Positions 25,501-63,970 of a DNA stretch of 64,000 nucleotides are shown piece after piece. This stretch comes from Hypomesus transpacificus (taxonomy: Eukaryota > Chordata > Actinopteri > Osmeriformes > Osmeridae). Under the pieces are notes generated by a model that saw only the letters and a list, made by a program, of their open reading frames with translations, had not been told where the DNA came from and did no database searches. A program made the position numbers and the translations under genes. Within the stretch, counting starts at the first letter, position 1, and the number at the start of each line of letters is the position of its first letter. The stretch covers positions 15,907,334 through 15,971,333 of the forward strand of contig NC_061082.1 of assembly GCF_021917145.1 (NCBI RefSeq), read 5' to 3'.

Positions 25501-26199
25501 TGTGTGCACCCAAGCGAGCATGGGTGAGAGTATGCGCGAGCGTGCTGGTTTGTGTGCGCACGATTACTGTGTACGGTATGCGCGTGTGTATGACAACCAC
25601 ACGCTTAGATGTTGACAGTCACAGAGCACAGAAAGGTGACAAAAGGGACACTAAAGCTTGACCTAGTATCATCATATCCAAGAAAACATTTGACCTGACT
25701 GACCTTTTACATGTATAATAAAGCTAACTATTAAATAATGTTGTTGGTTTAGGTACAGTAACTTTCCATGAACTATTCCATGCTGGCCAACCGTTACTGT
25801 CCAGACTGTCAAATTTAAAACTGTTGAAAAACACGCGTTGTAAATGTACGCACAGTGTTCACGTTCTGCAACATAAATGACAGTTACAGTCACAGTGACA
25901 AGTCTGATGACAATAGAGACAGTCGAGGATGGAAGGTGGGAGGGTTAGTTTTTTTTTTTTTGACATACTCAGTCACCAGAGTTGACAAGCAGTCTCACTG
26001 CTACACACAACTCTCAGACACCAGAGACAGAAGTCAGAGGAGAACACTCCACATGAAGGCACACTGCAGTTCTTGTGAGTATCTCGTCAGTGCTCAGTCA
26101 CTGACATACGATTTACATCGTCTCCTATGGTGGCTTTCCTCCCCATAGGATGCCGGCTCTGGTTATTCTTCAACACACAGCTTTGTTTCTCCCACAGCG

Positions 26200-27847
26200 A
26201 TGGCTGACGAGAGCACGCCGGGCAACTTCTCCACCTCCGCCAATGGGAGCTCCTGCGATGTACTCGTCCACGGGACTCCGGCCCTGGTCATTTTCCCCGT
26301 CTTCTACTCGCTGGTCTTCCTCGTCAGCGCCTGTGGCAACAGCCTGGTCCTTTACGTCAGCTGTGGGAAGAATGGGCCAAAGTTCAACTCCACGTCGGTG
26401 TACCTGGTGAACCTGGCGCTGTCCGACGCCCTCTTCACCCTGGCCCTTCCGGGCAGGGTGGTCTACTACATCCGGCAGTTTGACTGGCCATTCGGAGACC
26501 TGCTCTGCCGGCTGACGGCTGTTCTGTTCTTCACCAACATCTACACAGGTATGTGTGTGTTGACAGAATGACCCGATGCAATGTGAGTCTCCAGATGTTT
26601 GTCTGCTTGCCTGCTCTGGAGTGTCTGGAGTAGTGTTTACATTTACATTTAGTCATTTAGCAGACGCTCTTATCCAGAGCGACTTACAGTAAGTACAGGG
26701 ACATTCCCCCGAGCCAAATAGGGTGCCTTGCCCAAGGACACAACTTCACCCAGCCCCGTGCCTAGCGTAACAAGTCCATCTCGTCCTTCTCCTAGGTATC
26801 GCCTTCATGACCTGTATTAGCCTGGACCGCTTCCTGGACATGGTTCACCCTCACCGTCTGCAGCATCTGCGTGGAGCGAGGGTGGTCCGGGGGGTCTGCT
26901 GCCTCGTCTGGCTCCTGGCTTCAGTTCAGACGTCCCCGCTTCTATTCCGGCCCATGCTCCAGGAGCAGCAGGGCAGGCGCACCTGCATGGAGTACTTCAA
27001 CTTCGACGGCTCTCCCTCCACCCCTTACCTGCTCCTCCTGGCCTGCCTGCTCTCCTTCTGCTTCCCCCTGCTGGCCATCCTGGGTTGCTACACCCAGATC
27101 CAGCTCAAGCTGCGGGCCAGCGCCAAGCAGAACCCGCTGACCGGCCGTTCTGGCCGGAGCCGAAGGGCCAACACCATCATCCTCCTCATCCTTCTCACCT
27201 TCGTCCTGTGCTTCAGCCCGTACCACCTCAACATCATGAGGTTCATGGTTAGGAAGATGGTTGGCCAGCCCACTTGCCCCGAACTGAGAGCCTTCAAGGT
27301 GTCTCTTCAGGTAAGAACGGATAGCTGAGATACTAGCTGCACCATTCTCTCTGTTTTCTCTGTTCTATTTTCTCTGCGAGTCATTCCATGTGGGGAAGCG
27401 AGGGGAACATACTTTTGTACAATGGTTTTCATGGAATATGTTCACTCATTACCAGACAGGCTGCTGTCTTGACAGTGCTGTTTTGAAAAGTACTTTTGGG
27501 GGTTCCTTTTTGAAAACAGTAGCTATGCGGAGCCCTGTCATAAAAGTAACCATCAACAAAACGGCCAAAACGACGATACAACAACATCAAAGCTCATTTA
27601 TATTTTGGTTATATCCGAGTGTTCTATGTTATGCCACTAAGAAAACCATTTACCTTCATATTCATCCAATGATCTGTTTCAGGTGACTGTGTCTATGATG
27701 AATCTCAACTGCTGCCTAGATCCAGTCATCTACTTCTTTGCTATAAAGACCTACAAGAAGAGGGTGTTAAGTCTGTTTAAGGGTTACCTGTCCGCCTCTG
27801 GACCCTCCTCCAAGACCACGACGGACAACAGCAGCAGCAACACTTGA
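26200..27847 (+). CDS. gpr183: GPR183-like (EBI2) oxysterol-receptor-type GPCR, three coding exons
   Basis: Coding exons 26200-26548, 26796-27310 and 27683-27847 join in frame (phases 1 and 0) to 342 residues. GPR183 is a class A receptor for 7alpha,25-dihydroxycholesterol that positions B cells, T cells and dendritic cells through Gi. Visible features are an N-glycosylation-rich N-terminus (NFS, NGS), TM1 GNSLVLY, TM2 NLALSDALF, and a TM3 Cys (LLCRL) paired with ECL2 Cys (RTCMEYFNF). There is also a DRF variant of DRY (SLDRFLDMVHP), the GPR183-typical AKQNPLTGRSG in ICL3, TM6 FVLCFSPYH, and a DPVIYF variant of NPxxY. ECL2 and ICL3 motifs point to GPR183 over GPR18 or P2Y. Human GPR183 coding sequence is intronless, so introns in TM3 and before TM7 are unusual. 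A (C)CACAG acceptor sits just before the ATG, suggesting a 5' UTR intron. The paralogue (a or b) is not resolved. Confidence 0.87.
26636..26760 (-). mobile_element. SINE 3' part (V-SINE-like) in GPR183-like intron 1
   Basis: It carries the fish SINE tail in reverse (CATTTAGCAGACGCTCTTAT, then a GAGCGACTTACAG block) followed by TGCCTTGCCCAAGGACACAA. It matches the copies at 46161-46345 and 52755-52942. The tRNA-like head is missing here. It fills about half of the 247-bp intron. Confidence 0.75.
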
Positions 27848-30294: not shown

Positions 30295-31556
30295 ATGGAT
30301 GCTAACATTGAAAACAGAGGTAGAGCCAGAGGAGTGAGAGTAAGAGGGGGAGGACGGGGAGGACGAAGACCGTAATCTCTGATGAGATCCGAGTCACCTT
30401 GGTTGACCAAGTATGTTTCAAGTACTTTGTATTCCTACACAGTATTTACAGTATTTTACTATTTGTTTGGCAGAACTGAAAGATTACCCACACAATGTGG
30501 TCGGGAACGTCTTCTGTCTCCTGAACAGCTGGAAACTGAAATCATAAACATATTCCAATAAAATGACGCCATAACGTTACGGCAAATCCAAAGAAAAATT
30601 AAAGAAAACCATGATATATTTCAAAGTATTGATAGGATAAACTTATCAACACTGGACCGTGTTTTGCGCAGAAATAATCTGAGGATGAAGCAGGTCTACA
30701 GGGTGCCATTTGAACGCAATTCAGAAAGAGTCAAAGAATTGCGATATAACTATGTGCAAGTGAGTCCTATACAATCCCACAATTGATGCATACTCTCAAC
30801 ACTGTATAAATGATACATATTTCAGTATTGTACTCATAATGATTGTGCTTCACAATAGTGACCACACCATGTCTTTTTCTGATATTGTCATGTGCATTTC
30901 AGAGACTCCTTGAGCTAAAGGTGGCTGCAGTGGAGCACCAGTTGATTTTCATTGACGAGGTTGGATTCAACCTCACAAAAAGACGAAGGAGGGGAAGGAA
31001 TATCATCGGCCATCGTGCCATTGTTGAAGTCCCTGGCCAGCGCGGAGGGAACATCACAATGTGTGCAGCGATTGCCCACCACGGCGTCATCAATCACCAT
31101 GCGACCCTTGGCCCCTTCAACACTGCCCACCTGATCACATTCCTGGACACCCTACACGACACACTCATTCCACCAGATCAGATAGACAGCCCAGAGCAGC
31201 TCAGGTACGTTGTCATTTGGGACAACGTAAGTTTCCACCGGGCTGCTCTGGTTCCTAACTGGTTCACTGCCCACCCACGCTTTTGTTATCTCCCTCCATA
31301 TTCTCTATTCCTCAATCCTATTGAGGAAATATTTTCTGCCTGGAGATGGAAAGTGTATGACCGAGATCCACAAACACGTATACCACTTCTCCAAGCTATG
31401 GAAGACCTATGTGGAGATATAGCAGTTGATGCTTTTCACGGCTGGATTCGCCATGCTAGGCGATATTTCCCCCGCTGCTTGGCCAGAGAAAACCTAGCTT
31501 GTGACGTGGATGCGGTGCTGTGGCCAGACCGAAACAGAAGAGAGGATGCAGCATAG
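30295..31556 (+). pseudogene. Tc1/mariner-superfamily (DDE_3) transposase with introns, inactivated
   Basis: Three exon-like blocks are visible. The first (from 30295) starts MDANIENRGRARG, runs into a Gly/Arg tract and loses frame by one base before the block VISDEIRVTLVD. The second (about 30474-30760) reads TERLPTQCGRERLLSPEQ..., has an in-frame TAA after IFQ, and ends NYVQ|gtgagt. The third (about 30901-31556) is open and holds the catalytic domain: first Asp in FIDEVGF, second Asp in VVIWDNVSFHRA, and the Glu region LNPIEEIF about 34 residues later. Such intron-containing IS630/Tc1-like transposases are abundant in fish. The frameshift and stop mean it is dead unless unusual splicing avoids them. 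I could not identify its terminal repeats. Confidence 0.8.
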
Positions 31557-41492: not shown

Positions 41493-41498
41493 CTAACT
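41493..41498. repeat. Left 6-bp target-site duplication CTAACT
   Basis: Identical to 51330-51335 on the other side of the 9.83-kb transposon. The pair fixes both ends of the element to the base. Confidence 0.9.
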
Positions 41499-41519
41499 TA
41501 TGGAGTTAGATTAGTTTCA

Positions 41520-41690
41520 TAATTCAAACAAACAAACGCAACACGATTCAAACAAACTTAACACGATCCAAACAAACGTAACACGATTCATACAAACATA
41601 ACACGATTCAAACAAACAAACGTAACACGATTCAAACAAACGTAACACGATTTACAAATGTATTTCGTGATTCTTAAATGTAACGCGATT
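41520..41690. repeat. Subterminal repeat array, left TIR
   Basis: About eight degenerate units of AACACGATTCAAACAAAC lie directly inside the left terminus. Regularly spaced subterminal motifs are commonly transposase-binding sites; that role here is inference. Confidence 0.75.
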
Positions 41691-41902
41691 CACAAATAAA
41701 TGACCCTATTACATTCGTTTGCAACCTGACAAACACAAGTTACAAATCCCTGCATTCGTTGGTGTGAATCCCTGCATTCGTTCGTGTGAATCCCTGCATT
41801 CGTTCGTATGGATTTTTGGAACTTTCCTGACGCGCTTAGATTCACAAATGCATTTTTTCTAAAAGATATCCTCTGCAGCCTATCAGATGTCTCCAATTTT
41901 AG

Positions 41903-41907
41903 CCAAT
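41903..41907 (+). promoter_or_regulatory. CCAAT box of the TIR promoter
   Basis: AGCCAATCAC lies about 60 bp upstream of the ATG at 41965, which has a strong start context (ACAATGG). The same box precedes the transposase start in the right TIR. No TATA box is obvious. Confidence 0.4.
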
Positions 41908-41964
41908 CACAAATGGACTACAACGACCTTACCCGCCATAGTAACGGACTTGACATCACGAACA

Positions 41965-44900
41965 ATGGCGTCTGGTGGTAGCCGCCCACCAAATGTAAGT
42001 GAAATATAGCTTGTTAATCTTATTAAACCGATTATCATACGTGATTGAATATTCTTGAGAATGGCAGGATCCATGTTTAGTCATTTTAAGTGTTTCCTAG
42101 GCTAACGTTTAGCAAGCTAGCTAGTCAATGTCTAACTTAACCTGGTCTTGCTAGCTAACATGATGGATACAGTACAGTACTGTACGATTGATGCATTAGT
42201 TTGCGGTCAAGCCAGGTAACATCTTACATGGGACTTTAGAGAACAGATAATTAAAACGATGTTTTCCAAAGCAGGGACTGTCAAATCAAGTGGAGGCTGC
42301 AGCACGTGTTCTTGTGCAAGCCCTAGCTAGGAATATTTCCCCAATGGCAGAGAGCCGAGCAGCAGAGAGCACAGTTGGGGCTGTAACTATGGCCCCTACC
42401 ATACCTAATGCCACCAATACTGACAGTAGGGTGAGACAGGCTATGAGAAGGTAATACATACACTGTATGTGGGTAAGGATTAATGCTATACATTATATGG
42501 GAGACAGTACCCAACACTGCATCAGTATTCAAGGTTAGCTAGATGTATTCGATTTGGATAGCACTTAGTTTATCGAACCCCCACATGGCTTTCAGAAATT
42601 CCTTACACACGAATTGAGCGCCATCATGTTTTCGAAAAACAGTGCCTGAAGAGTCATCATTGTTGTTAAAGGGGAAAGTGTTGTTGTAAATGCATTTGCC
42701 AACTGCAATTGCCAAGTCATAGCTAATGTATTTTACAATCTGACTGTGCCTGTCTGTTTCTATCAGGGCATTATGATCCTCAAGCAACTAATTAACATAT
42801 TGAAATAGTTCAGCAATTATTGCAAATCAATGCTGTTTTCTTCATTCATCTTTTTGTCACTCCCTCATCAGGCAGTTCCCAAGTATGTTTAATACCGATC
42901 AGCCAAGAGGAAAAAGACGGTTCTCAACCCCTTCCACCTGCACTGTAAAAAGTACAGCCTTTCATTTTTTTGTCCTTTCTGAACCAACCCTGTATACACC
43001 AAAGGGCTCTGAAGAGATAGAATTTGCCCATGCTGGCCTTGGTAAAAGGATGCTCAGTCTAGCAGACCACTTGAAGCACAGTGAGGTAAACAAATAATAC
43101 AATAATGTTAAATAGTCAATCATTCTAATTGTTAAAAATGGGACTTACTGAATAGTGTAATTTATATTTAAAAAAAATTTAGTTATTATTTTAGATTGTG
43201 TCTCTTGTAGAGGATGAATACTCTAAACTGAAGACCCTAAAAGGAGGATGGATGTTTTCCAAGGGAACAGGTAGCATTTCTATCACTGTTGTTGCTAGAT
43301 CACCTCGTACAACCATCCTGATCTCGCAAGCTCACATTCTGTTTCACTCAACAGGTCAGTCTGAAAGTATTAGACTGTCTCCAGAACCCATCATCTGTGT
43401 AATTGTTTGGATTTGTGTAGTGTGATCCAGTAGACTGCATAATAACTTTTCTCAACGCCCATTGTCAATGCCACTACCAAACAAAACGTGTGCAAGTCCA
43501 GCCTGGTCTGTGACGTGAAACAGAATGTGACCTCACGAGAACAGGTGGTACAAATGGTTGTACAAGGCTACTTAGTAGCTCCAATAATGAAAATCTTTTT
43601 GTTCATGTTTTTTTTTTTTTTTACCAGGTGGTAGTGGGCGTCGCAAGCTCACAATTATTCCAATAGACTCTGAAGGCTACTCCACACGTGTGTTAAAAGC
43701 AGCTTCAAACAATGGAAAGAACACAATCTATGTGGTTCCAATACAAGAGCACCTATCTACAGAGCCATTGCCTTATGACTCACCTGAGTTTTCAAAGATG
43801 CCACAGTCAACCTGCATCACCTGTGGTAGTGAAATGCCCTTGCAGCTCTTGCCGTTGCATGTGGGACAATGCAGTGGCACAATAACTGTACGTTTGTACG
43901 GCAACACTTCTGTTATTACTCAATTAAACATGCATATTTTTTGTTTGTTTGAAAATCTACAAATCTTTTGTTTTTTAAGGGCAATACACCTGGGGCTAGT
44001 CTTGATGAAGATTGCCATGTCATTGATCAGCCAGTTGAACCTACCACAGGGACCAGAGAAGGGATGGGAGTATCTTTTGAGGTAATGCCTTCCACATAAG
44101 CACTTTGGTTTCTTCTTATTACAATTTATTAAAATATTCCATTGAATGTTGTTTTTTCCAGGTTTGCCCAATTTGTCTTACACCATACCCATTTGATATC
44201 CTGTTATCTCATGCAAGCACGTGTGGTGATAGGTAAGATATTTATGACTAATAGATTCAGAAAAAAAATTGCATGATTAAAAGTCACGTCGAACTTGACT
44301 TTAAATCCAAGCTTTAAATGCTCGTTTTTTTATATCTTACAATGTTACTGCTCTAGACTGCATCGGTGCATGCACGTGCTGCGTCTTTGTAATAAAGTAG
44401 TATTCATAATGGATATAAATATGAAGGTGATTTTGAAGGACTTTGTTAGATGAAAATGATATGCAGGACGTAATACGTTAAGATGCGTTTCAGTCATGAT
44501 TTGTCTTTTCATTCTTGCAAGTAACAAGTTTTTATGTCTGTCTTAAGAATGGGCATCACTCACAGCGAATCAGCCAGCCCTACAAGGAGAGAAGAATTGC
44601 CAGGACCCTCAGTTCAACGACTGTCTATACAACTGTCAGCAGGTGATTTATACCCTTATGATATAATCTGAGTATAATGCAATTTGGAAGTTTTTTTAAA
44701 ACAACTGATTTTACACTGTATTTTATTGCCAGCACATATGAACGAACAAGATCCTTGGAAAGCATGTCAGCTGTTCCGAGAAGAACTACTGGACAGAAAC
44801 TCCGAACATCGACGTCTCTCTCTCACTCTCGACATGTTTGATGAACCAGAAGAACAGGACAGTTCGCTGATTTCGTTCTATAAAATGAACAATGTTAACT

Positions 44901-47620
44901 GGGCTGCTCCATTCAAGTGCCATCTGAGAGGTATTACTAAAATGTGTGATATTTATTTTATTAATCATGTAAATTGCATTCTGTTTCTTAATAACTGTGT
45001 ATTGTATCTCGTAGTTACTTGTTTTTCATCTGAAGTCATAATTTATTTTCAAGGAGATGCAGCTGTTGGCGAAGGGGTGAACCGACATGTTTTGTCATTG
45101 GTCATGCAAAAACTGAAAACTGGTTTCAGTATAAATCTAGGTTTGTGAAGAGACCACAAGAGAAAATGCTTTAATTTAACATTCTTTTAGAATGTAATAC
45201 AAACATTTGGGGATAACACATATTTTTGCTCTTAAGGCTCTGCTGGTCTCACAACCCTTTTTGAAGGCGAAAAAGAACATCGGGTTCCCTCCGCAGCTGC
45301 TGTGCTTAGGGCAAGTAACCTGTTTGAGATGGCAGGCCGGATGATTGGCCACTCTGTCCTGCATGGTGGTCCTGGTTTCTCAGGACTCAGTTTTCCTGTG
45401 GTTAAACTTTTGACTGGTAGACACAGGGACACTGCAGCATCCGCTCTGACCCTGCAGGACTGTCCTGATCTAGATCACCGCGAAACAATTGCTCTTGTGA
45501 GTAGCAGCATTTCTAAATTCTTAAATGTCCCAATGTCATATGCTTATCACAATGCGACATGTTTTTCTCACATGAGCTTTTAAATCACGCATCATCAATT
45601 ATTATATTCTTTTCTTTTTTTATGCATGTGTTTTAGCTCACAAAAGCAAAAATGACTGCAGCAGAAACCACCAGTGTGACTGATCTTTGCCTGTCCTGGG
45701 ATCTCCCGGTTCCTTCACCTACCAATCATGACTGGCTGTTTCAAGAACTGCTCACACAAGCAGTAATCATTTTATTATTTAGATTACTGGATAAGTAAAA
45801 TGGAAATATGACCATCTAACCCATTCTGATTTGTATCGGAGGTTGACAGTGTAACACATGCCACATTTGTACCTGTGCCTTGTGTTCTGTCATTCATCAC
45901 TGCAGGTACTTGATCGTGTTGCGCAACCCATTAAACAGATCCGGAAAGGCCTGAAAGACACAGGAATCTGGCCGCTTCTGTCAGATAGACCAGATGTTCA
46001 CCCCATCATTTTCCCACGGGAGGCAGATGAGGAGCTTGATGCGCAAGTAAGCATTGCTTTGGTTAGTTTAGAAAGGATTTGTGTTTATATGACACAATGC
46101 AATCTGTCTGCAATTGAATTGTATGATTGTTCTGCAGCATAGCTCATGGTAATTTCAGTTACATTTAGTCATTTAGCAGATGCTCTTATCCAGAGCACTT
46201 ACAGTAAGTACAGGGACATTTCCCCGAGGCAAGTAGGGTGAAGTGCCTTGCCCAAGGACACAACGTTATTTGGCACGGCCGGGAATTGAACTGGCAACCT
46301 TCTGATTACTATCCTGATTCCTTAACTGCTCAGCCACCTGACTGCCATTTAAAAGCACAAATAGTGCTACATTATAGTGTAGCATTTTCATGTCATTGTT
46401 AGAAAGGTAAACTTTGTTGTTGAAGTCATAAGCAAGTTAAGACAGATCCGGAGCATTAAAGGTAGAATATAATAGTCAAACATCAGTATTACAGGGCTGT
46501 TCTTAACGCTGTAGAATGCCCCATTCACTTGAATGGGGCTTCCCAACGTTCTGCGGTCTGATATCTTCTGATAACAGACCGTTGCTATGAATAACAGACC
46601 GCTGTCAAGGAAAGTGGCCTTTTTGCTTCTGATTCACGTCTTTCGTAGCACTCCGCAAGTAGTCCGGTAACTTTTCAACCCCAGCGTACTCCGTTGATTA
46701 GCGACGTCAGCTGATTTGAAGCCTAAAGAATGTTTAATTTCTATGAAGTTCAATGTCTTTGGCGAACTATTTCTCTGCTGATCAACACAACGAATGGGAA
46801 CAAATACATTGTAAAAAGTAGTATTTTCTTTAGCAAGTAGCCGTGTAATAAGTCCTTCCGCTTCGCGTCGGGATGCTGTTCGCCCTGTCGGAGCTTATTT
46901 TCCCGATAATGACCGGCGTTCTATACATTATCCCTTATAATAAAGGTTGGTTGTTAGAAAGTCATGCTGATTAACTGCAACTGCCATGAATCATTTTACT
47001 AATAACATAAAACATGTTTTAACCCTGTAGACTGTGATCAAGAACATTTGCTGGCCAAAACCGACATCTGACAGCGACCAGGATGAGGATGAGGAAGACT
47101 GTGTCCCATTTGAGACAGTTACTCTTATAACTGAGTTTTTACGAAAATTCATTGTGGAAGGTAATATTAATTTCCTATATTGGATTTTGAAGCAGTTGCT
47201 CCCTGCTAATAAAGGGATAAAGTAGCAGATATCGTGCAGCCAGAGATAACATTGTACAGATAATAATATTATACAGAATTTAGAGTAACATTTTAAATCA
47301 ATGCAAAATATGTGACATTTTGGTTAATTTGCTATGCTCAAAATGTTCGTTTTGATTAAATGTATTGGAGATGTCACATACATTCAATATTCTCCTTCAT
47401 AGCATCACCAGAGGTGTTACGTGACCTTGTGAAGTTCTGGGTCGGGTGGGAACAGCTGACTACCAACCTCATCGTGGAGGTTGTGACCTCTACCTATCCA
47501 GTAGCACACACCTGTTTCTCCAAATTGAAGCTTCCCAGCCACTACCGGACCTACATCAAGTTCCACGATGACTTATCGATGTGTATCCGATGCACCAATA
47601 GTGGTTTTGGGCTAGTGTAG
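41965..47620 (+). CDS. Transposon-borne HECT E3 ubiquitin ligase with two UBZ4-like fingers
   Basis: Fifteen exons splice in frame to 727 residues: 41965-41994, 42275-42450, 42872-43085, 43195-43270, 43628-43887, 43980-44081, 44162-44232, 44548-44642, 44733-44930, 45054-45140, 45237-45496, 45637-45762, 45906-46046, 47031-47160, 47403-47620. All introns are gt-ag. Residues 228-247 and 288-307 each fit C-x2-C-x11-H-x3-C, the UBZ4 ubiquitin-binding pattern. The C-terminal ~330 residues are a HECT domain: LFEGEKEHRVPS, GRMIGHSVLHGGPGFSGL, and a C-lobe with VAHTCFSKLKLP, where Cys693 is the thioester cysteine, ending in GFGLV. HECT enzymes take ubiquitin from an E2 onto this Cys and pass it to a substrate. 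It resembles fish 'G2/M-phase-specific E3 ligase-like' proteins. Its role in transposition or host interaction is unknown. The first exon lies in the TIR and is shared with the transposase. Confidence 0.87.
46161..46345 (-). mobile_element. SINE (V-SINE-like) in HECT intron 13
   Basis: A nearly full-length tRNA-headed SINE in reverse. It has the tail CATTTAGCAGATGCTCTTAT, the middle GTGCCTTGCCCAAGGACACA, and a head with complements of the B box (GGGAATTGAACTGGC) and A box (CTGCTCAGCCACCTG). It inserted after the transposon arrived or while it was circulating. Confidence 0.85.
46493..46945. mobile_element. MITE-like insertion in HECT intron 13
   Basis: It carries the words GGGCTGTTCTTAACGCTGTA, AATGCCCCATTCACTTGAAT and paired AACAGACCG motifs, characteristic of a fish MITE. 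Ends are not precisely defined. A faint relative (GAATGGGCCATCCCAACATT) lies at about 50508 in transposase intron 1. Confidence 0.5.
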
Positions 47621-47978
47621 GTTTTCACATCTTTTATGGACATCTTTTATGGATGCCAAAATAAGGTCAGCATGAGTGAAATAAGTATGTTAAGAATGTT
47701 AGATGTTTACACAAAACTAATAATGCAGAAGTTATATCCTTATCGTTCACTGAGTAGCATAACTTCAGTCTTTCACATTGTGTTGTCAAATAATTGTCTT
47801 ATGCTAATAAAGAAAGAGTTCCCGGTGACAAAACATCCTGTTTTCTGATCGTCAAGCAGGTGTTTAATAGTTATCTATGTACAGCCACCTATGCAGTTTC
47901 ATTAAGATATGTTTATGATTATTATTTACATTTCAGTCATTTATCAGACACTCTTATAATTATTATTTCATTTTATAT

Positions 47979-50863
47979 TTATCTTGCCTCAAGTAAATTC
48001 TCAACAAACTGGACTGTGTTGACATAAATGTCCACTCCAAAACTTTCAGAGTATTGTAATGGTTCAATGGCGTCTTGAAGTTGCACCATTTCTTCATCTG
48101 AGAGTGGGCTGTCCAGCACAGGGACATTGACACCAGGGTGTGGCTCACTGATGTAGACGCTCTCCTCCCATTCGACTTCTGGTACAAGTATAGCCTGACA
48201 AAGATGGATATTAGATATAAGCACAACAAATGTTAAGTAAACCAGCTGAAACCATTACCACTACCATGTATAAAACTGATCAATGAATGGTTATGGTTTA
48301 AAGTTCTGGCTTTTAGGGTGTCTGTTTTTAATTTATAAATGACTAACAAGACATTATGGTAATTAGATGTTTTAACAAATCACCATTTACCTCAGGAAGA
48401 GGATCTGCAACGGGATTCAAGGCCTGGCCCACCTGCCACAACTGATTTGGTGTCAGGTTTTGCTCTGTCCTAATGGGATGGTTATCCCAGGCCTCATGGA
48501 AGACATTCAGGCTGGCCTGGATACGTGGCAGGAAAACGTAGTGGCAGCAGAACATGTGCAGGATGTTGCTGATATCGAGCAAGTATTGATCCTCTAGAGT
48601 GTGCAGGGCGTTGTAATATACACCTGTAACACTCATGAACACATCACGCCAGAGGCGCTCAATTCTGTATTGGAAAAAAGCATTTACATTACAATTACTT
48701 AATATCCATGTGTCTTGCAATGGATCATTGAGGTCAGTTAACAGAAATCTTTTTTGTCAATATAATTCTTCATAAAATTAGGTTTAACTCACCGTTGGTT
48801 ATGCACGCTTTTTCCAGCAATGAAGCTGTTGGTTTCAGTTCCACGAACTCTATACATCAGTTCAGCAACTCCCACGTTTTCTCCTCCATGATCTCCTCTC
48901 ACTCTGAAAATATAACATGTAAATTGCCTCATACAGTTTTGAAAGTTATGTAGTGCAAATATTACAAACACAAGAATAGCTCCATATTGGCGATGATGTT
49001 AAAAAGATATGTTACGTTTAAACTAATATCTGAACATCTAAATTCTATGATGACCTCTGCAATAATACTAAGGATGACAATTGAAATGTGAATACCTCAG
49101 AGGGAAACCATGCTCATTGACAGCTTCAGTGAAAAAGGCCAAGTGTGTGTCAGAGCGGTTATTGTCTGCTACCTTTAGATACATAACCTCACATACATTC
49201 ACAAATAGTACAGTAGGTTAGTACTTTGATTGGTCAGTTTTCTATCCAACATGAGGAACAGAGATTTCTGTACTACACTGCCCCGAGCAAAACAACATAT
49301 GCCCAAATGGAAGTTGCATCCGTCTGAAAAGTGTTGATCATTCCATTTATTTTGATTAAGACATAGTATAAGATGGTATTCAACAGTAAGCATTCTTACC
49401 TTCCTTGAGTAGCCATCTATTCCCCCAAAGATGACAAAGTTGTACCTTTATTAAAATAAATTGTATTAGCTTTAACAGTATATGAACAACTGTTAAGTGT
49501 CTTTTAAACACAATACACAACATTTTCAACAGCATAGGTCTCATGATACAATATCTGCATCTTAGCAGAGAAAAATGGGTTCATGGTTTCTAGAACAATG
49601 TTAAATTCATACTGTTCTGGTTACTATGGTCTATCGATGATATGACATACAGTGATGTTATACAAAATACAAACTACACAATTTTTTACATGTTAATAAA
49701 CTGACAAATTGATATACAGATATGAATCAGTTATACCTGATTAGCTTGTGATTGGTGTCAATGTGCACCAAATACTTTGGATAAGGAACATTGTATGTTC
49801 TTCTGACCACACATCCAAGACCAGTCAGCCTGGAGAACACACCAACACTATCTACGCGATGCATGGACGCATGCAACCTATCCCATTGTATTTTGTGTCC
49901 CTGTGCAAGGAGAGCACCTCGGACAACACGATAACCAGCATCTGGCATTGTGTTTTTAATTTCTGTGATCAAATTATCCAATTCATTGTCACTGCAACTA
50001 CTGTATAAGGCCCTTAAAGATAGATTGAGTTCTTTCATCCGCCTGTGTACTGTTGTTCTAGACACACCCAGAAGCTTGGCAATGATATTTAAAGGCAGAG
50101 CCATTTCAACTAGATGTGTGAGTGCATCTTCTGAAATTGTAAATCTTGGACGGCCACGTCCAGAACTTCTTTCAAATTCCAGAATCACAAATGTCTGCCG
50201 ACTTTCCATTTGTTGCTGGATAGCAATAATAAGATCTGAGAGTGCTGAGAGTATGTCCTCGTGTACAACTACTACTTCAGCTAGAGCGCTCAACAAAACA
50301 TGTTCCTGATGGCAAGCAAACTGTAGACCATCTAGGTCCAGAGGTTGCCTTTCCAAGATCCGCACAACTCGATCATGTAATCTTCTCAAAATAAAATACT
50401 TCAGCGAATCCTAGGGAAAGATAGACAGACAGACAAACAAATAAACATGAGTGCACAGACACACATAAGGTGCTTCAGAATTCGACAGAATATTATCCTA
50501 AATTCAACTGAATGGGCCATCCCAACATTCAGATGTCTGCTATACTGTACAAATTTCTAGCTACCAATGCTACTGCCACACAATTTTATTATTTTGACCT
50601 GCCACACTCCACCTAGCTTGACCGCAAACTAATGCATCAATCGTACAGTACTGTACTGTATCCATCATGTTAGCTAGCAAGACCAGGTTAAGTTAGACAT
50701 TGACTAGCTAGCTTGCTAAACGTTAGCCTAGGAAACACTTAAAATGACTAAACATGGATCCTGCCATTCTCAAGAATATTCAATCACGTATGATAATCGG
50801 TTTAATAAGATTAACAAGCTATATTTCACTTACATTTGGTGGGCGGCTACCACCAGACGCCAT
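47979..50863 (-). CDS. IS3EU-like integrase-fold (DDE) transposase, intact
   Basis: Seven minus-strand exons splice in frame to 480 residues: 50834-50863, 49737-50410, 49400-49445, 49096-49187, 48793-48903, 48391-48664, 47979-48194. The N-terminal part holds a helix-turn-helix-like segment at about residues 100-140 ([18 protein letters not shown]) after a GRGRPRF motif. The rve-type catalytic core has Asp228 (HIDTNHKL), Asp285 ([10 protein letters not shown]) and Glu320 ([11 protein letters not shown]), with 34 residues between the last two. That is close to the DD35E of retroviral and IS3 integrases. It should cut and join the TIR ends and leave a 6-bp duplication. The acidic C-terminus ([14 protein letters not shown]) is typical of related fish proteins. 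Exon 1 is the TIR exon [10 protein letters not shown], identical to that of the HECT gene. The frame shows no breaks. Confidence 0.88.
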
Positions 50864-51329
50864 TGTTCGTGATGTCAAGTCCGTTACTATGGCGGGTAAG
50901 GTCGTTGTAGTCCATTTGTGATTGGCTAAAATTGGAGACATCTGATAGGCTGCAGAGGATATCTTTTAGAAAAAATGCATTTGTGAATCTAAGCGCGTCA
51001 GGAAAGTTCCAAAAATCCATACGAACGAATGCAGGGATTCACACGAACGAATGCAGGGATTCACACCAACGAATGCAGGGATTTGTAACTTGTGTTTGTC
51101 AGGTTGCAAACGAATGTAATAGGGTCATTTATTTGTGAATCGCGTTACATTTAAGAATCACAAAATACATTTGTAAATCGTGTTACGTTTGTTTGAATCG
51201 TGTTACGTTTGTTTGTTTGAATCGTGTTATGTTTGTATGAATCGTGTTACGTTTGTTTGGATCGTGTTAAGTTTGTTTGAATCGTGTTGCGTTTGTTTGT
51301 TTGAATTATGAAACTAATCTAACTCCATA
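50611..51329 (-). repeat. Right terminal inverted repeat
   Basis: The inverted twin of 41499-42217 with the same length. Noted differences are C/T at the inner edge (left 42213) and one in the GTATTTCGTG/GTATTTTGTG word. It supplies the promoter and first exon (50834-50863) of the transposase. Confidence 0.95.
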
Positions 51330-52492
51330 CTAACTGTCCCATATTAGTCGGGACGTCCTTTAAATTGGGTCTAAATGATTTGTCCCATACGTGACCTCCC
51401 TTGTCCCGTTTATTGACTAACGCTGATCTAGCCACTGACTGACACAACAGCTACAGCAGCAGCAGTGCTGATCACGACATTTAAGAACTGATCACTGACA
51501 CAGCACACCTTCACGCGCAGTAGCTGTAAAAGTACTGTAAAAAAAGTACTGTAAGTACTTTTACTGTAAGTAAATGCATTACTTAAACCAGGTCAACAAC
51601 TTCTGGTAGCAAGCAGTTACGTTAGCTCTTGTTCTCTCACACAGTATGCCGTTTTTTACGAAGAGTTTGGGTGATTTTACCAAAATGACACTTATGATTA
51701 TGTACTGCCCTTCAAGCAGGAGGGAATACGTTAGCTACATCGACCAAGGTAGGGTTAATCTAACTCAGTCAGTTAAAGTATAACTAGCCCTAGTTTTAGC
51801 TAGCATCTAACCGATTTGAGCAGTAACATTATAGGCCCTACTAGAGCTAGCTAGGCTAGCTAATAATGTAGGCTACTCAATTATCTGATGGCTGGCTTGC
51901 TAGTCGTTAATGCTAACAGAAGAAGACTAATTGGTGTCATATTAGTTTCCTGTGCCTATGGATAATGTAGCCTCATGTAACATGTCTTTCTCAGTTTCTA
52001 AAATCTGGAAACGGGACGGGATATCTCCGTGGGGGCGACCTATTATCGTTCGATGGAAAGAGCAAGACTCCGCACAATCTGAGTGTAGGGTTAAGAAAAC
52101 AATGCTAAGGGTTAACATAATCTGTTTTGTTTTAAACTTCACCGGAACTGTAGACCTGACTGGTTTCCCGAAATGCGTAACACTATCGTGTGCAAATCTA
52201 TGGAGCATAAAGCCAAACAATGTATATAACACAGTATATTCACACAAAACCATACCCGCATTGCTGCGGCAGGCCACCCTTTGTCCCCTATTTCATAGAG
52301 ACAAAGTTGGCAACCCTACATAGGCTATGCCATTTAGCGAACGGTAGCCATTTAAACAACACAATAGCTTGGCATCTGAAGACGTTTCCAAGGTGATAAC
52401 AATTAAGGCCACGTCATAATGGAAATGGTGTACAAAGTAAGCCGGGGTTCCAGGATGCATTTCATTAGAAGTCTGTCAACGAAAGCCTCAAC
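51330..52492. other. Right 6-bp target duplication followed by a probable MITE remnant
   Basis: 51330-51335 is CTAACT, the right target-site duplication. Sequence to about 52318 reads like a fish MITE: its end, complemented, is TAGGGTTGCCAACTTTGTC. That resembles the TAGTGTTGCTAACTGTCCC obtained when the transposon is removed (41487-41498 joined to 51336). The transposon therefore probably landed in the first 12 bp of this MITE. Frames of 111-123 residues inside it are not recognised. 52319-52492 is the USP gene upstream flank. Confidence 0.55.
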
Positions 52493-55400: not shown

Positions 55401-57521
55401 CCCCTCCTGGAGGGAGGGGCATGGGGCGGAGGGGCGTACACCTGCCCTGTCCGCACCAACCTGCTCTTCCAGATGCTCAGCACGAGGACTTGCAGGCAGT
55501 AAGACACGTGGACATGCTCCTGCTATGCTGCGCTGCACACGCGCCTCACTCACAGGGATGCACATGTTTGCTCATGGCAACTTTTACCAAAGGTTTTGTA
55601 AAACGAGACTTGAATTCTGTGTCGAGGTGTGGACTGCAGTCCTCCAGACAGGAGGAGTTCTCCAACTTGTCTCTGGCCCTGACGGCCGGGAGCTCCGTCG
55701 AGGCCTGCCTGCAGCAGTACCTCCAGGTCAGAAGCTCCCGCTACGCACTAGACTACTCCAATTAGCCTTGGAGTGCCATCTAAGGATGATGTGTATCACA
55801 TAATAACTGCCCCCCCCCCATCTCTTCTTTGCTGTAGGAGACTGAACTGGAGTTTCGCTGCAGCTGTGGAGGATGCCGCTCAGGACTGCGGTGGTCGTTC
55901 CTGACCCTGCCCCAGTGAGTCTGCCAGCTGTGTCATTCCTGGTCCCTCAGTAGGCTAACATTCTAACGGCAGAACTTTCCTTCACCTTCTCCCCCGTGCA
56001 GAGTGATCGTGTTCCAGTTGAACCGATTCTGTCACGGCGCACAGTGGCAGCTGGAGAAGTTGGAGGAGCCCATTCTTCTCAGCAGGGAGCTGCTGCTCTG
56101 CTCTGGACCGAGCGGCGACAAGGCACTACCCAGCAGGGCTGCCCAGGAGCAGGGCCAGACTCCTGGGGGGCAGGGACTCACCCAGGAGCAGGGCCAGACT
56201 CCTGGGGGCCAGGGAGATACTCAGGAGCAGGGCCAGGCTCCTGGGGGCCAGGGACTCACCCAGGAGCAGGGCCAGACTCCTGGGGGCCAGGGAGATACTC
56301 AGGAGCAGGGCCAGGCTCCTGGGGGCCAGGGACTCACCCAGGAGCAGGGCCAGGCTCCTGGGGGCCAGGGAGACACCCAGGAGCAGGGCCAGGCTCCTGG
56401 GGGCCAGGGACTCACCCAGGAGCAGGGCCAGACTCCTGGGGGCCAGGGACTCACTCAGGAGCAGGGCCAGGCTCCTGGGGGCCAGGGACACACCCAGGAG
56501 CAGGGCCAGACTCCTGGGGGCCAGGGAGACACCCAGGCCGGGACAGGGGTCACCCAGCTGACCAGCCCTCATGCCTCAGGTACAGTACAGGGGGGTTGTG
56601 GTTCAGCAACTCTGCTGACGGCACTGTGTGATGGGTTTGGAGACTTGGCACCACACATGCTCAGATTAGTCCTGATTAGAACACACAGCTCCACAGCTGG
56701 GAGATGACTAGGGAGTTCAGAGCTTGTCAGTTTACTGTGTTACCACCCTTGTCTGATCCAGTTCACGTGAGCACTGAGGAGGGGTCAGAGAGACAGGGAA
56801 GCCCCCCCATGGTGAGGACAGAGATAGGAGAGAGACACCAAATATCAGACATATACTCTATCTAATCAGAAAGAAAGGATTAGCTGTACAAAAAATATAT
56901 ATATCCTACTTCAGGATAAAGACGGATGCTCTTTTGAAAGTGTGTTCACTGTGCTGCACTGTGTGTGTGACTGCTGGGTGTCTGTTTCCAGAGCTCAAGG
57001 TACAGCCTGGTCAGTGTGTTGAGTCACATTGGTTCTTCTACCAACTCGGGTAAGGCTCACACCATGTTACACTCACACCAGGAACTGTTTGTAAGTATTA
57101 CAATGATACACCCTTACACGTATGTCCAACCTGAATGACCCTATTCAGCTGCAAATTGACTTATTTAGGTTGCTGGGGGTAAGTATAGACACAAATACAC
57201 CATTCACGGGTGAGTATAACACACCATTCACGGGTGAGTATCCACACTCACACACACACATTGACAGCACCACGGTGGGGTGAACAGGTGAGTATAACCC
57301 CGATTGACTACCTAACAGAGCACCCTCCTCTCCCTATAGGCCACTACATCTGTGACTGTCACTACGCAGACGGGGACCCCGACGACCCGACAGACCGCTG
57401 GCTCTCCTACAACGACCACATCGTCACGGAGACGACCGGCGAGTTAGTCTGCGGGCGCAGGCAGAGGAGCTCCTACATGCTGTTCTACGAGAGACGGGTA
57501 CGGAAAAGCCAAACACTTTGA
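52493..57521 (+). CDS. USP37-like ubiquitin-specific protease
   Basis: Fourteen exons splice in frame to 795 residues: 52493-52552, 52973-53028, 53166-53794, 54191-54236, 54456-54602, 54696-54827, 55095-55218, 55350-55498, 55627-55726, 55838-55914, 56002-56579, 56762-56811, 56992-57049, 57340-57521. USP enzymes are cysteine proteases that remove ubiquitin. The Cys box is GLPNLSKSCYLNAAIQ with Cys321. KDAHEFF follows, then a CRQCG/CGGC zinc-ribbon-like set, and the His box SHIGSSTNSGHYICD (His737) with WLSYND (Asn760/Asp761). It is closest to the USP37/26/29 group, but lacks the N-terminal PH-like region of USP37. Instead residues ~40-200 are a Thr/Pro/Val repeat, and residues 556-685 are a second repeat inside the catalytic domain. 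It starts MGCINSSEE, a myristoylation-like N-terminus. The last exon reads through a possible donor to TGA at 57521. Confidence 0.82.
52755..52942 (+). mobile_element. Full-length tRNA-derived SINE (V-SINE-like) in USP intron 1
   Basis: It has a pol III A box (TCAGGTGGCTGAGCGGTTAG) and B box (GGTTACCGGTTTGATTCCCC) as in a Leu/Ser-type tRNA. A body with GTGTCCTTGGGCAAGGCACT follows, and a tail with AATAAGAGCGTCTGCTAAAT. It is the best-preserved of the three copies and fills nearly half of the intron. Confidence 0.9.
53257..53650 (+). repeat. Coding minisatellite A in USP exon 3
   Basis: About fifteen 24-bp units (AAGGTGGTCCAGTCCACCCC-type) encode KVVQSTPT-like octads at residues ~70-200. Variants such as MVRPATPT, PVKPVTPT and NMVWSTPT occur. 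All changes keep the frame. The opposite strand is also open in two frames, a repeat artefact. Confidence 0.9.
54925..55090. repeat. Pyrimidine-rich minisatellite in USP intron 6
   Basis: Tandem ~28-bp units of TCTCTCCCTCCCCATCTCTC type run up to the branch/acceptor region of exon 7, so the repeat itself supplies the polypyrimidine tract. Confidence 0.85.
56147..56536 (+). repeat. Coding minisatellite B in USP exon 11
   Basis: Exactly ten 39-bp units encode EQGQ(T/A)PGGQG(L/D/H)TQ, residues 556-685. They lie between the VIVFQLNRF strand and the His box, that is, as an insert in the catalytic domain. Units are nearly identical and mostly differ at two codons, so the array is young or homogenised. 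It should be length-variable in the population. Confidence 0.95.
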
Positions 57522-61340: not shown

Positions 61341-63179
61341 ATTTGAAAACTTCCATCACTGAACTTGATTCCTTTCGATAACAATAAAATGAAACATTTG
61401 GACAAGAAAACAAAACTTTGTGGTTTGTAGCAATGGATGAACAAGCATGAACTTCACAAAACCATGAATAGTTTAAGGGAATTTAATAGGCACTTTTCAA
61501 ATTGCTTTACTGAATAAAATAACTTAACCATGCAAAAGGAAACCACAACCCAGTCCTCCCTCAAATGGCTTTCAGTTGAACACAAACAGGTTGTTAGGAG
61601 GAAGTTTCGATGTTTATCCTTAGATTGACACTAAAGCCGTTACTCAAATGTGTTTTTGAAACAGTCGGTGAGAGAGCGCATCCACTGAAAGGTTTCCTGT
61701 CCAAGTGTTGCAATCTGCTCTCTTTCTGCAGTGACACCTTTAGCTTCATTAACTACACTGGCTGCACTAACTTACCCAACAGACTGTTTGGAAATGGCTC
61801 AGGCCCTTTTAAAATAGCCAACACATATCTGTTTTAGAATTCAAATCTGATTTGAGCAGATTTAGGGACGTTTTTCAAATCAATGTCAAACCATGGCCGC
61901 ACAGTTTCACACATCAACATCTACATCCAACCTAAACACTCAAAGACAAGGAAAGACTTCCAACAAAAAGCAATCTCCTCCTAGGAGATCAAATGAAAAT
62001 GTTTGATATGATGTTATTACTGACTGCACTGTGCACTGTGTCTTGTAACACAGGCCATCTTCAGGCACTTACTGGGTAGTTCTAGTCCTTGATTATCTTG
62101 TGCACTTACAGCCGATGTGTATTGTCTCAACTCACTCCTTGGTATGAGTACGGACCACCCACACCAGCAAGAAGCTAGTATTCTGCTGGCGTAAGTGATA
62201 GTGCAGGTCACGCTTGCGGAATCGGTGGTGCAGAGTTTGAGTCCAATGACGGGTGGTTGGGAAGTGTGTGCACTGCCTACACAAAAAGTATCTTACACAC
62301 TCACTACAGTATGTGCATTTTGTACGATAGTTTGAATAAAAGTGTCTGCTAACAGAATAAATATACAGTATATAAGATGAAGATTAAATGAAAAATGGTG
62401 CAAATATTAGAACGGTCGTGGAAGTGACTACTCTCACCCCCCACCTCCCACACTAAAGAAAGGGACTTACGGTGGAAGTAGGGATGGGTCTCCAAAGGTT
62501 ACGTTTAGATTTGAGTAACACTTCAGTCGCACAGTCAGAATGCCTGAAGAGATTTGAGTTTGTTTTCATTTAAACACTGAGTGGCAGTAAGTAAGTTGGC
62601 TCTCTGAATTAACCAGCCATCTTTGTTCCAGATGATCGGAGCCCTCTCAGCCCAGCCTTCAAAATACCTCACTTCACCTCAACTCTTTGGCGTCAACGGC
62701 TGCGATTCTTTGAATCAGATACCACTAAAAAGGATTTCCTGAGTGGAGGTTGTTTGCATGAATGATAAGTTAAAAGCGACTTTGGTTAAATAGCACGGCT
62801 GAGCTCTGCTCACCCAAATTAACACCAGTTACACCAGAAGCGTGGTATTCACAATTCAACAGGCACAAAATAACTCACAACTCAATTGTACTGTCTTCGC
62901 ACAAAACTACACCAGACAAGCTCGATTTTTTAACACAATTGTTCTGTGGATTCTTCATCTCCTGAGGGCCTTCTCCTCAGCTCTGGCTTGTCTCACTCCT
63001 TCTCCTTCCCTACCTCTTGCTTTCTCTTCCTGATTTACAATAATCAAGGTAGGGTAAGTAATATGTAAAACCTTCAATTTGTAACATTGTAATTGATTGC
63101 ATTCATTTGTTATGTTATTAAATATCCATTTCATTTAACCTTAGTTTTTACCATTCTTGCTCTGATTTAACCCATAGAG
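61341..63179. other. Non-coding stretch with a possible SINE
   Basis: At about 62100-62360 a B-box-like AGAGTTTGAGTCC and a tail TAAAAGTGTCTGCTAACAGA suggest a decayed tRNA-derived SINE. A 75-residue frame at 61610 is not recognised. Nothing else is supported. Confidence 0.4.
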
Positions 63180-63970
63180 CCAAATGGGTTGCATCCTTTC
63201 CCCTCTGCTCTTCTCCCTGTACACCAACAGCTGCACCTCCAGACATCAGTCCGTCAAACTCCTGAAGTTTGCGGACGACACCACCCTCATTGGGCTCATC
63301 TCTGACAGGGATGAGTCTGATTACAGGTGGGAAGCTGACAACCTGACCTGGTGCAGCCAGAACTTAGAGCTCAATGCTCTCAAGACAGTGGAGATGGTTG
63401 TGGACTTCAGGGAGAACACAGCCACACTCACCCCCATCTCCCTGTGCGACTCCCCAGTCAACACTGTGGAGTCCTTCCGCTTCCTGGGCACTATCCTCTC
63501 CCAGGACCTCAAGTGGGAACTGAACATCAGCTCAACTTCACTAAGAAAGCACAACAGAGAATGTACTTCCTACGACAGCTGAAGAAATTCAACCTGCCAA
63601 AGACAATGATGGTGCACTTCTACACAGCCATCACTGAGTCCATCCACACCTCCTCCATCACCATCTGGTAGGCTGCTGCCACTGCCAAGGACATGAGCGG
63701 ACTGCAACATATCACCCGCGTTGCTGAGAAGGTGATCGGCTGCAATCTGCTTACCCTCGAGGACCTGCACTTCTTTAGGACCCTGAGCCAAGCAAGGAAG
63801 ATTGTGGCTGACTCCTCCCACCCTGGACACACTCTGTTCCAGCCACTCCCCTTTAGCAGAAGGCTGCGGTCCATCAGGACCAAAACCTCACACCATAAGT
63901 AGAACAGTCAGAACAGTGTCTTTCCATCCGCCCCTGGCCTCTTCAACAAGGCCAAGGATTGAATTGATTG
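63180..63970 (+). pseudogene. 5'-truncated LINE reverse transcriptase (L2/CR1-like)
   Basis: It starts inside the RT domain at GCILSPLLFSLYTN. It includes the catalytic KLLKFADDTTLIGLI, the SFRFLGTILSQDLKWELN block, then after a frameshift (near 63545) FLRQLKKFNLPKTMMVHFY and, after an in-frame TAG near 63669, further C-terminal blocks (EKVIGCNL, DSSHPGHTLF, RRLRSIRTKTSHHK). Endonuclease and 5' RT parts are missing, as in typical 5'-truncated copies. It is not functional. The copy ends about 30 bp before the window end. Confidence 0.88.

Follow-up and report, generated by a model that had tools for sequence, protein, structure and literature searches.

Repbase has listed IS3EU transposons since 2013 and contained 45 families of them in 2022, and passages of a paper on these elements describe them by TA..TA termini and, usually, 6-bp target-site duplications (PMC10045372). 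Fungal TET+ IS3EU elements, in the excerpted part of a second paper, have TAYGG..CCRTA ends and carry TET dioxygenase and alpha-kinase genes (PMC12730594). For MuDR of maize, passages of a third state that mudrA and mudrB each adjoin one terminal inverted repeat (TIR; TIRA, TIRB) and that the 3' part of TIRA corresponds to the mudrA transcript (PMC8224964). In Ginger1, OTU or Ulp1 protease domains that hydrolyze ubiquitin or SUMO are found at the transposase C-terminus, and the excerpt contains its authors' proposal that the ubiquitin/SUMO pathway is involved in transposition (PMC2836005).

Here, we analyzed a 64,000-nucleotide stretch of the Hypomesus transpacificus assembly (C23:15907334-15971333; called the window, whose positions are used below unless a contig is named). 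We found a 9,831-bp transposon on the + strand at 41499..51329, delimited by its own sequence, its sister copies, and paralogous empty sites. Its termini are TATGG...CCATA (end sequences TATGGAGTTAG...CTAACTCCATA), and the flanking hexamer, CTAACT, is identical on the left (41493..41498) and on the right (51330..51335, read from the flank). The TAT...ATA ends and the perfect CTAACT duplication reported in an earlier note on this DNA are therefore both present in the sequence. When joined, the two flanks match two paralogous sites, each of which reads across the join with one CTAACT: a site at C23 17.21 Mb is identical to the joined flanks in 31/36 columns on the left and 156/162 on the right, and a site at C4 8.89 Mb in 26/28 and 148/160 columns, respectively. 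Since both sites are continuous across the join and have just one CTAACT, the ends of the element are base-exact, as the earlier note, which had also suggested looking for empty sites, had claimed.

The minus strand of the element contains a gene model for a DDE transposase of 480 amino acids (47979..50863, 7 exons), with D228, D285, and E320 as catalytic residues and a first exon of ten codons at 50834..50863. Manual splicing gave 6 introns, all GT-AG, and no internal stops. The predicted protein contains a Pfam integrase core domain (rva_4, E=6e-73), and in a 20-row alignment, D228 is invariant and D285 and E320 are at least 90% conserved. The spacing between the second D and the E is 34 residues, and the first D lies within 100-300 residues from the start, as in the DDE core of IS3EU. 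A domain search upstream of this core returned no match to a zinc finger; the matches there were of HTH type only, all under curated cut-offs. The protein is 71% identical to a Trematomus protein over 100% of its length, and its named relatives are mostly called "uncharacterized" or "integrase core." A sequence search for solved structures among the transposase relatives found none at E<=1, and an alignment-based search confirmed 0 of 32 pattern-matching stretches in viral contigs and 0 of 30 in bacterial/archaeal genomes. A HECT-like N-terminus on transposase P0082 was rejected as too weak (E=0.085). Elsewhere in the window, an open frame at 30843-31556 with a DDE_3 domain is a fragment of another transposase, and a match to RVT_1 reverse transcriptase at 63178-63582 is weak and below the curated cut-off. 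On its termini, 6-bp duplication, DDE residues, and absent zinc finger match, the element fits IS3EU, as the earlier note had proposed; the class is set by these features rather than by a tree against a named IS3EU protein.

The plus strand contains a 15-exon gene model for a HECT-type E3 ligase of 727 amino acids (41965..47620), and its exon 1 (41965..41994) encodes the same ten residues as exon 1 of the transposase. Its 14 introns are all GT-AG, and no internal stops were found after manual splicing. Our own splicing thus recovered the two multi-exon, in-frame genes of 480 and 727 residues that the earlier note had described, with 20/20 introns GT-AG, and shuffling the coding letters 200 times gave a mean of 64.7 stops, compared to 0 in the real reading frames. 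The gene models are supported by homologues, namely, the Trematomus protein for the transposase and an annotated Hypomesus transpacificus protein, P0121, for the HECT gene. P0121 is identical to our model at 648/652 aligned residues, with an additional 2-residue gap, and the C22 sister copy, under the same exon model, encodes all 652 P0121 residues exactly. The P0121 annotation starts at model residue 74, in exon 3, and leaves exon 1 unused. With ends, duplications, and two open spliced genes all found, the description of the element as complete stands.

The plus-strand product contains a PF00632 HECT domain (E=4e-12, residues 458-726). Its putative catalytic cysteine, C693 (codon at 47513..47515, + strand), lies in the motif AHTCF, which aligns with that of SMURF2, and would occupy the position in the C-lobe expected of a HECT domain; it is kept in all 14 rows that reach this position, and row 15, P0124, ends short. 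Two CxxC...H...C motifs, at residues 228-247 and 288-307, show full or at least 90% conservation in the alignment, and one relative carries the source name "UBZ4-type." A structure model of the Cololabis homologue P0122 (28 sequences, mean pLDDT 75.8) gave 95 matches in the PDB at E<=0.001, the best being the HECT structures of UBR5 and SMURF2. The gene is thus predicted, with the modelled Cololabis homologue as a guide to its fold, to encode a HECT E3 ligase. An AATAAA at 47806..47811 (+ strand), 3' of the stop codon, is a possible polyadenylation signal. Four cyprinid proteins (P0126, P0127, P0133, and P0137) combine RING-type segments, with a B-box in three of the proteins, with the beginning of the HECT protein of the transposon. 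A match to the end of a ubiquitin carboxyl-terminal hydrolase at 57189-57521 in the window is weak and just below the curated cut-off.

Intron 13 of the HECT gene contains a dispersed repeat (46153..46352, minus strand) that is SINE-like by eye and in which ARAGORN found no tRNA. Since its core is also present in the C18, C22, and C4 copies described below, the repeat has been carried along with the element. At 26149-27328 in the window, a rhodopsin-family receptor gene (7tm_1) is in two pieces, and the ~200 bp between them include a further match to this repeat.

In a TIR search of the 437-Mb assembly (376 contigs; 40 of 463 candidates scored, with at least 80 matches), the family comprised three complete copies and one end-truncated copy among the scored matches. 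Besides the window copy, the complete ones are on C18 (9,839 bp, TCGGAG duplication) and C22 (9,829 bp, AAAATC duplication), so all three have 6-bp duplications, while a copy on C4 lacks positions 1-175 (175 bp) of one TIR. With gaps left out, the C18 copy differs from the window copy at 14/9,822 sites (0.14%) and the C22 copy at 51/9,808 (0.52%); the corresponding value for the C4 copy, 108/9,747 (1.1%), is inflated by ~100 bp of included flank. If a substitution rate of ~1e-8 per site and year is assumed, the split between the window and C18 copies would date to some 70,000 years ago. All four near-complete copies have open frames and 20/20 splice dinucleotide pairs for the two genes, and the HECT product is 727, 727, 725, and 728 amino acids long across them. 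Between the window and C4 copies, 17/3,627 coding and 38/4,459 non-coding sites differ (p=0.04); the transposase alone has 2 synonymous and 6 non-synonymous differences, and for both genes together, p=0.09. These sequence comparisons lend weak support to selection between copies.

We also fetched 32 further loci, at which we found 17 perfect 6-bp duplications, each different, 2 with one mismatch, and 3 with more. At the remaining 10, our script missed one or both ends, and L038 is among them despite a perfect duplication that was read separately. The C18 and C22 copies and these 17 loci are other TIR-bounded copies with different 6-bp duplications, of the sort that the earlier note had proposed to look for. 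Among the further loci, those for which both ends were found measure 0.8-1.6 kb, apart from one of 3.2 kb. A derivative on C15 (L015, from C15:11507134 on; 3,210 bp), flanked by a CCTTCC duplication, includes exons 3-6 of the HECT gene and bears exactly the diagnostic residues of the annotated protein P0149, which runs on into a TRIM16-like protein. As judged from these residues, it is possible that the transposon has here lent exons to a host gene.

The two TIRs of the window copy (left, 41499..42217, + strand; right, 50611..51329, minus strand) are 719 bp each and align without gaps at 717/719 identical positions, in agreement with the equal length and near identity given in the earlier note. 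Each contains subterminal repeats: an array of ~20-bp units (41529..41652 in the left TIR, + strand, mirrored at 51176-51299), which are candidate transposase binding sites, and an array of about three 22-bp units (41745..41807, + strand, mirrored at 51021-51083). Each TIR also contains a start codon and a first splice donor, those of the HECT gene on the left and those of the transposase gene on the right, so the two predicted proteins begin alike. The earlier note mentions neither this shared TIR exon nor any role for the second gene. Exon 1 of both genes corresponds to TIR positions 467-496 and is 30 nt long, in phase 0, and followed by the donor GTAAGT. If this exon is left out, no Met occurs in the transposase ahead of residue 78. 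Many of the further loci described above are fold-back derivatives of ~1 kb (L017-L046) with TIR arms of ~609 bp and ~412 bp, the longer of which covers the shared exon together with its splice donor.

We found the same layout in two other families of this genome. One, at C22 5.2 Mb, is 9,723 bp long, with a CTCTAC duplication and TIRs of ~803 bp that are 97.5% identical, and its exon 1 at both ends reads MLMIS[T/M]ASHL|GTAAGT. The other, on C6 and C14, has TIRs of ~820-850 bp, an ATACAT duplication at the C6 locus, and an exon 1 at both ends that reads MAGQGSTPDGVPST|GTAAGT; at two C14 loci (C14a and C14b), the hexamers at the ends taken are unmatched. In-frame acceptors precede the second exons of both genes in both families. 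The layout of a shared TIR exon is thus common to three families of the genome, while the exon sequences are unrelated among them. The TA..TA termini of IS3EU are present in the window, C18, and C22 copies and in the C6 and C22 5.2 Mb families, and the perfect hexamers at C6 and C22 5.2 Mb likewise conform to the 6-bp duplication. At C14:3.07-3.23 Mb, five near-alike copies of a second HECT-carrying family (L049-L058) lie within ~160 kb, some of them with repeated TIR blocks. No long TIRs were found at older transposase-HECT pairs on C29 and C21, and the C7 and C38 loci have short inverted repeats only.

For other fish, we compared N-termini from proteins alone, a set without TIRs in which many models lack the true N-terminus. 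Among 5,760 transposase-HECT pairs, only two agree in at least 8 of their first ten residues, and in each of these the two proteins come from one species. The medaka proteins P0002 and P0131 share 15/15 first residues, Leuciscus P0009 and P0129 share 8/9 N-terminal residues, and Arctogadus P0057 (from residue 36, inside the model) and P0168 share 9/11, as counted by eye. Same-species pairs with unlike N-termini were found in Brachyhypopomus (P0156 versus P0074, P0108, and P0114), Fundulus heteroclitus (P0148 versus P0077), and Arctogadus (P0168 versus P0116). Our trees place the transposases of these pairs, where included, far from that of the window, and by this placement, they may belong to other families.

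To compare TIRs within and between copies, we aligned the six TIRs of the window, C18, and C22 copies. Four substitution columns (15, 132, 174, and 414) and two indel columns set both C22 TIRs apart from all four window and C18 TIRs. The TIRs of one copy differ at 2, 3, and 2 columns in the three copies, compared to 8 and 8 columns for same-side TIRs of the window and C22 copies. Because both TIRs of a copy hold the same states, the pair appears, from these alignments, to evolve in concert, with the ends exchanging sequence. For this reason, TIR identity gives no age, and we rejected it as an insertion clock; the near-identity of the TIRs, taken in the earlier note as a sign of youth, fails in that role. 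The evidence for a young insertion is, instead, that only 0.14% of sites differ between this copy and the one on C18, together with the clean duplications. The ends and the transposase gene are both intact, which is what autonomy would call for, and the view that this copy is young and possibly autonomous is supported as far as sequence can take it.

A transposase lies within 4 kb of 15 of the 21 HECT clusters found in this genome, always in convergent orientation, and the other 6 have none nearby; 66 transposase clusters were counted, fragments included, most with no HECT partner detected, and all of these counts come from searches that scored part of the candidates. Among about 8,000 candidates scored, we found 48 HECT relatives, 45 of which bear a species name. 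All 45 are, we assume, teleosts. The distances of transposases and HECT proteins are correlated over nine pairs that we chose (Mantel r=0.65, reached by 46/20,000 permutations; r 0.64 after a crude host correction). Carp proteins (Cyprinus P0014 and P0130) group with saury in both trees, and with perch in the HECT tree, rather than with other cyprinids. The likely reading of these trees is horizontal transfer of the gene pair; the other is contamination of the database entry. By these comparisons, the HECT gene seems to have accompanied the transposase gene in its spread among teleosts.

We consider it very probable that the locus is, as a whole, an intact cut-and-paste transposon of the IS3EU kind in which transposase and HECT genes start within TIRs that evolve in concert. 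Transcription from each long TIR would start one gene. The TIR provides a start codon, a short in-frame exon, and a splice donor, as seen in the gene models and their conservation, and this exon would be spliced to private exons for a DDE transposase at one end and a HECT ligase at the other. The transposase would bind the subterminal repeats, cut at the TATGG ends, and join them across a 6-bp stagger, which the duplications and empty sites indicate. Exchange between the TIRs, seen as a pattern, would keep the pair alike and thereby keep the shared exon the same. The ligase may target a host factor restricting the element, or it may serve transposase turnover or repair; action on such a host factor is a tentative proposal that we hold at somewhat less than even odds.

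Three other explanations were weighed against this account. DNA transposons do carry host genes, and the HECT gene could have been caught once by the window copy without any role in the element's own life cycle, in keeping with the 6/21 HECT clusters that have no transposase beside them. The same convergent pair, however, is found at 15/21 clusters and in several families, the TIR-exon layout is common to three families, and the carp proteins are incongruent with their host in the same way in both gene trees, which makes a single capture improbable. Only slightly less improbable is that the shared exon is an unused accident of very long TIRs and that the real starts lie elsewhere, as the annotation of the C22 copy, which starts downstream in exon 3, would suggest. 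Against this, the transposase would otherwise have no Met before residue 78; the exons of the three families are unrelated, yet all keep an ATG, a reading frame open in phase 0, and the GTAAGT donor at either end; both genes have in-frame acceptors in the families; and the medaka proteins of the two genes begin with the same 15 residues.

That the two open genes form a domesticated host locus lying between inverted repeats, with mobility lost, would also account for their intact frames, but it is hard to reconcile with several copies that have different 6-bp duplications, with two paralogous empty sites, and with a divergence of 0.14% from the C18 copy, and we regard it as extremely improbable. 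Beyond the intact IS3EU-kind transposon itself, we lean, with less assurance, toward a broader proposal in which an entire lineage of IS3EU transposons in teleosts has as its foundation a "starter cassette" that is present in both TIRs, comprises a promoter, a start codon, a coding exon, and a splice donor, and is kept identical by exchange. Transposase and ligase would then always share expression signals and an N-terminus, and the ligase would be a core anti-host or regulatory gene.

As far as the source passages go, the smelt element resembles IS3EU (IS3EU/GingerRoot) in its TA..TA ends, 6-bp duplications, and DDE core without an upstream HHCC motif, and it differs from the fungal TET+ elements they describe in carrying a HECT ligase gene rather than TET and alpha-kinase genes. 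A further difference is that TIRs of ~720-850 bp, in this and the related smelt families, contain coding exon 1 of two genes. It shares with MuDR, a member of another superfamily, the arrangement of two genes, each next to one TIR, but the passages on MuDR make no mention of a TIR coding exon common to both genes. Like Ginger1, as excerpted, it allies a transposon with the ubiquitin/SUMO system, but the domains in Ginger1 are proteases, whereas the smelt element has a distinct gene for a ligase, predicted to attach ubiquitin. In the open-access full text searched, no paper combined IS3EU with HECT, and none combined HECT, "DNA transposon," Repbase, and transposase. Some Repbase fish IS3EU entries may already include the HECT gene. 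The transposon belongs to a known kind, and in the arrangement of its genes it seems to represent a new variant.

IS3EU is a little-studied group, and a complete and recent IS3EU-like copy from a vertebrate, accompanied by three sisters, empty sites, and short derivatives, provides a test bed for cut-and-paste transposition. With a ligase travelling with the transposase, the idea of ubiquitin use, argued from proteases in the passages on Ginger1 (PMC2836005), would become testable from the ligase side. A shared TIR exon, together with TIRs that evolve in concert, would be a simple route to joint regulation of two genes.
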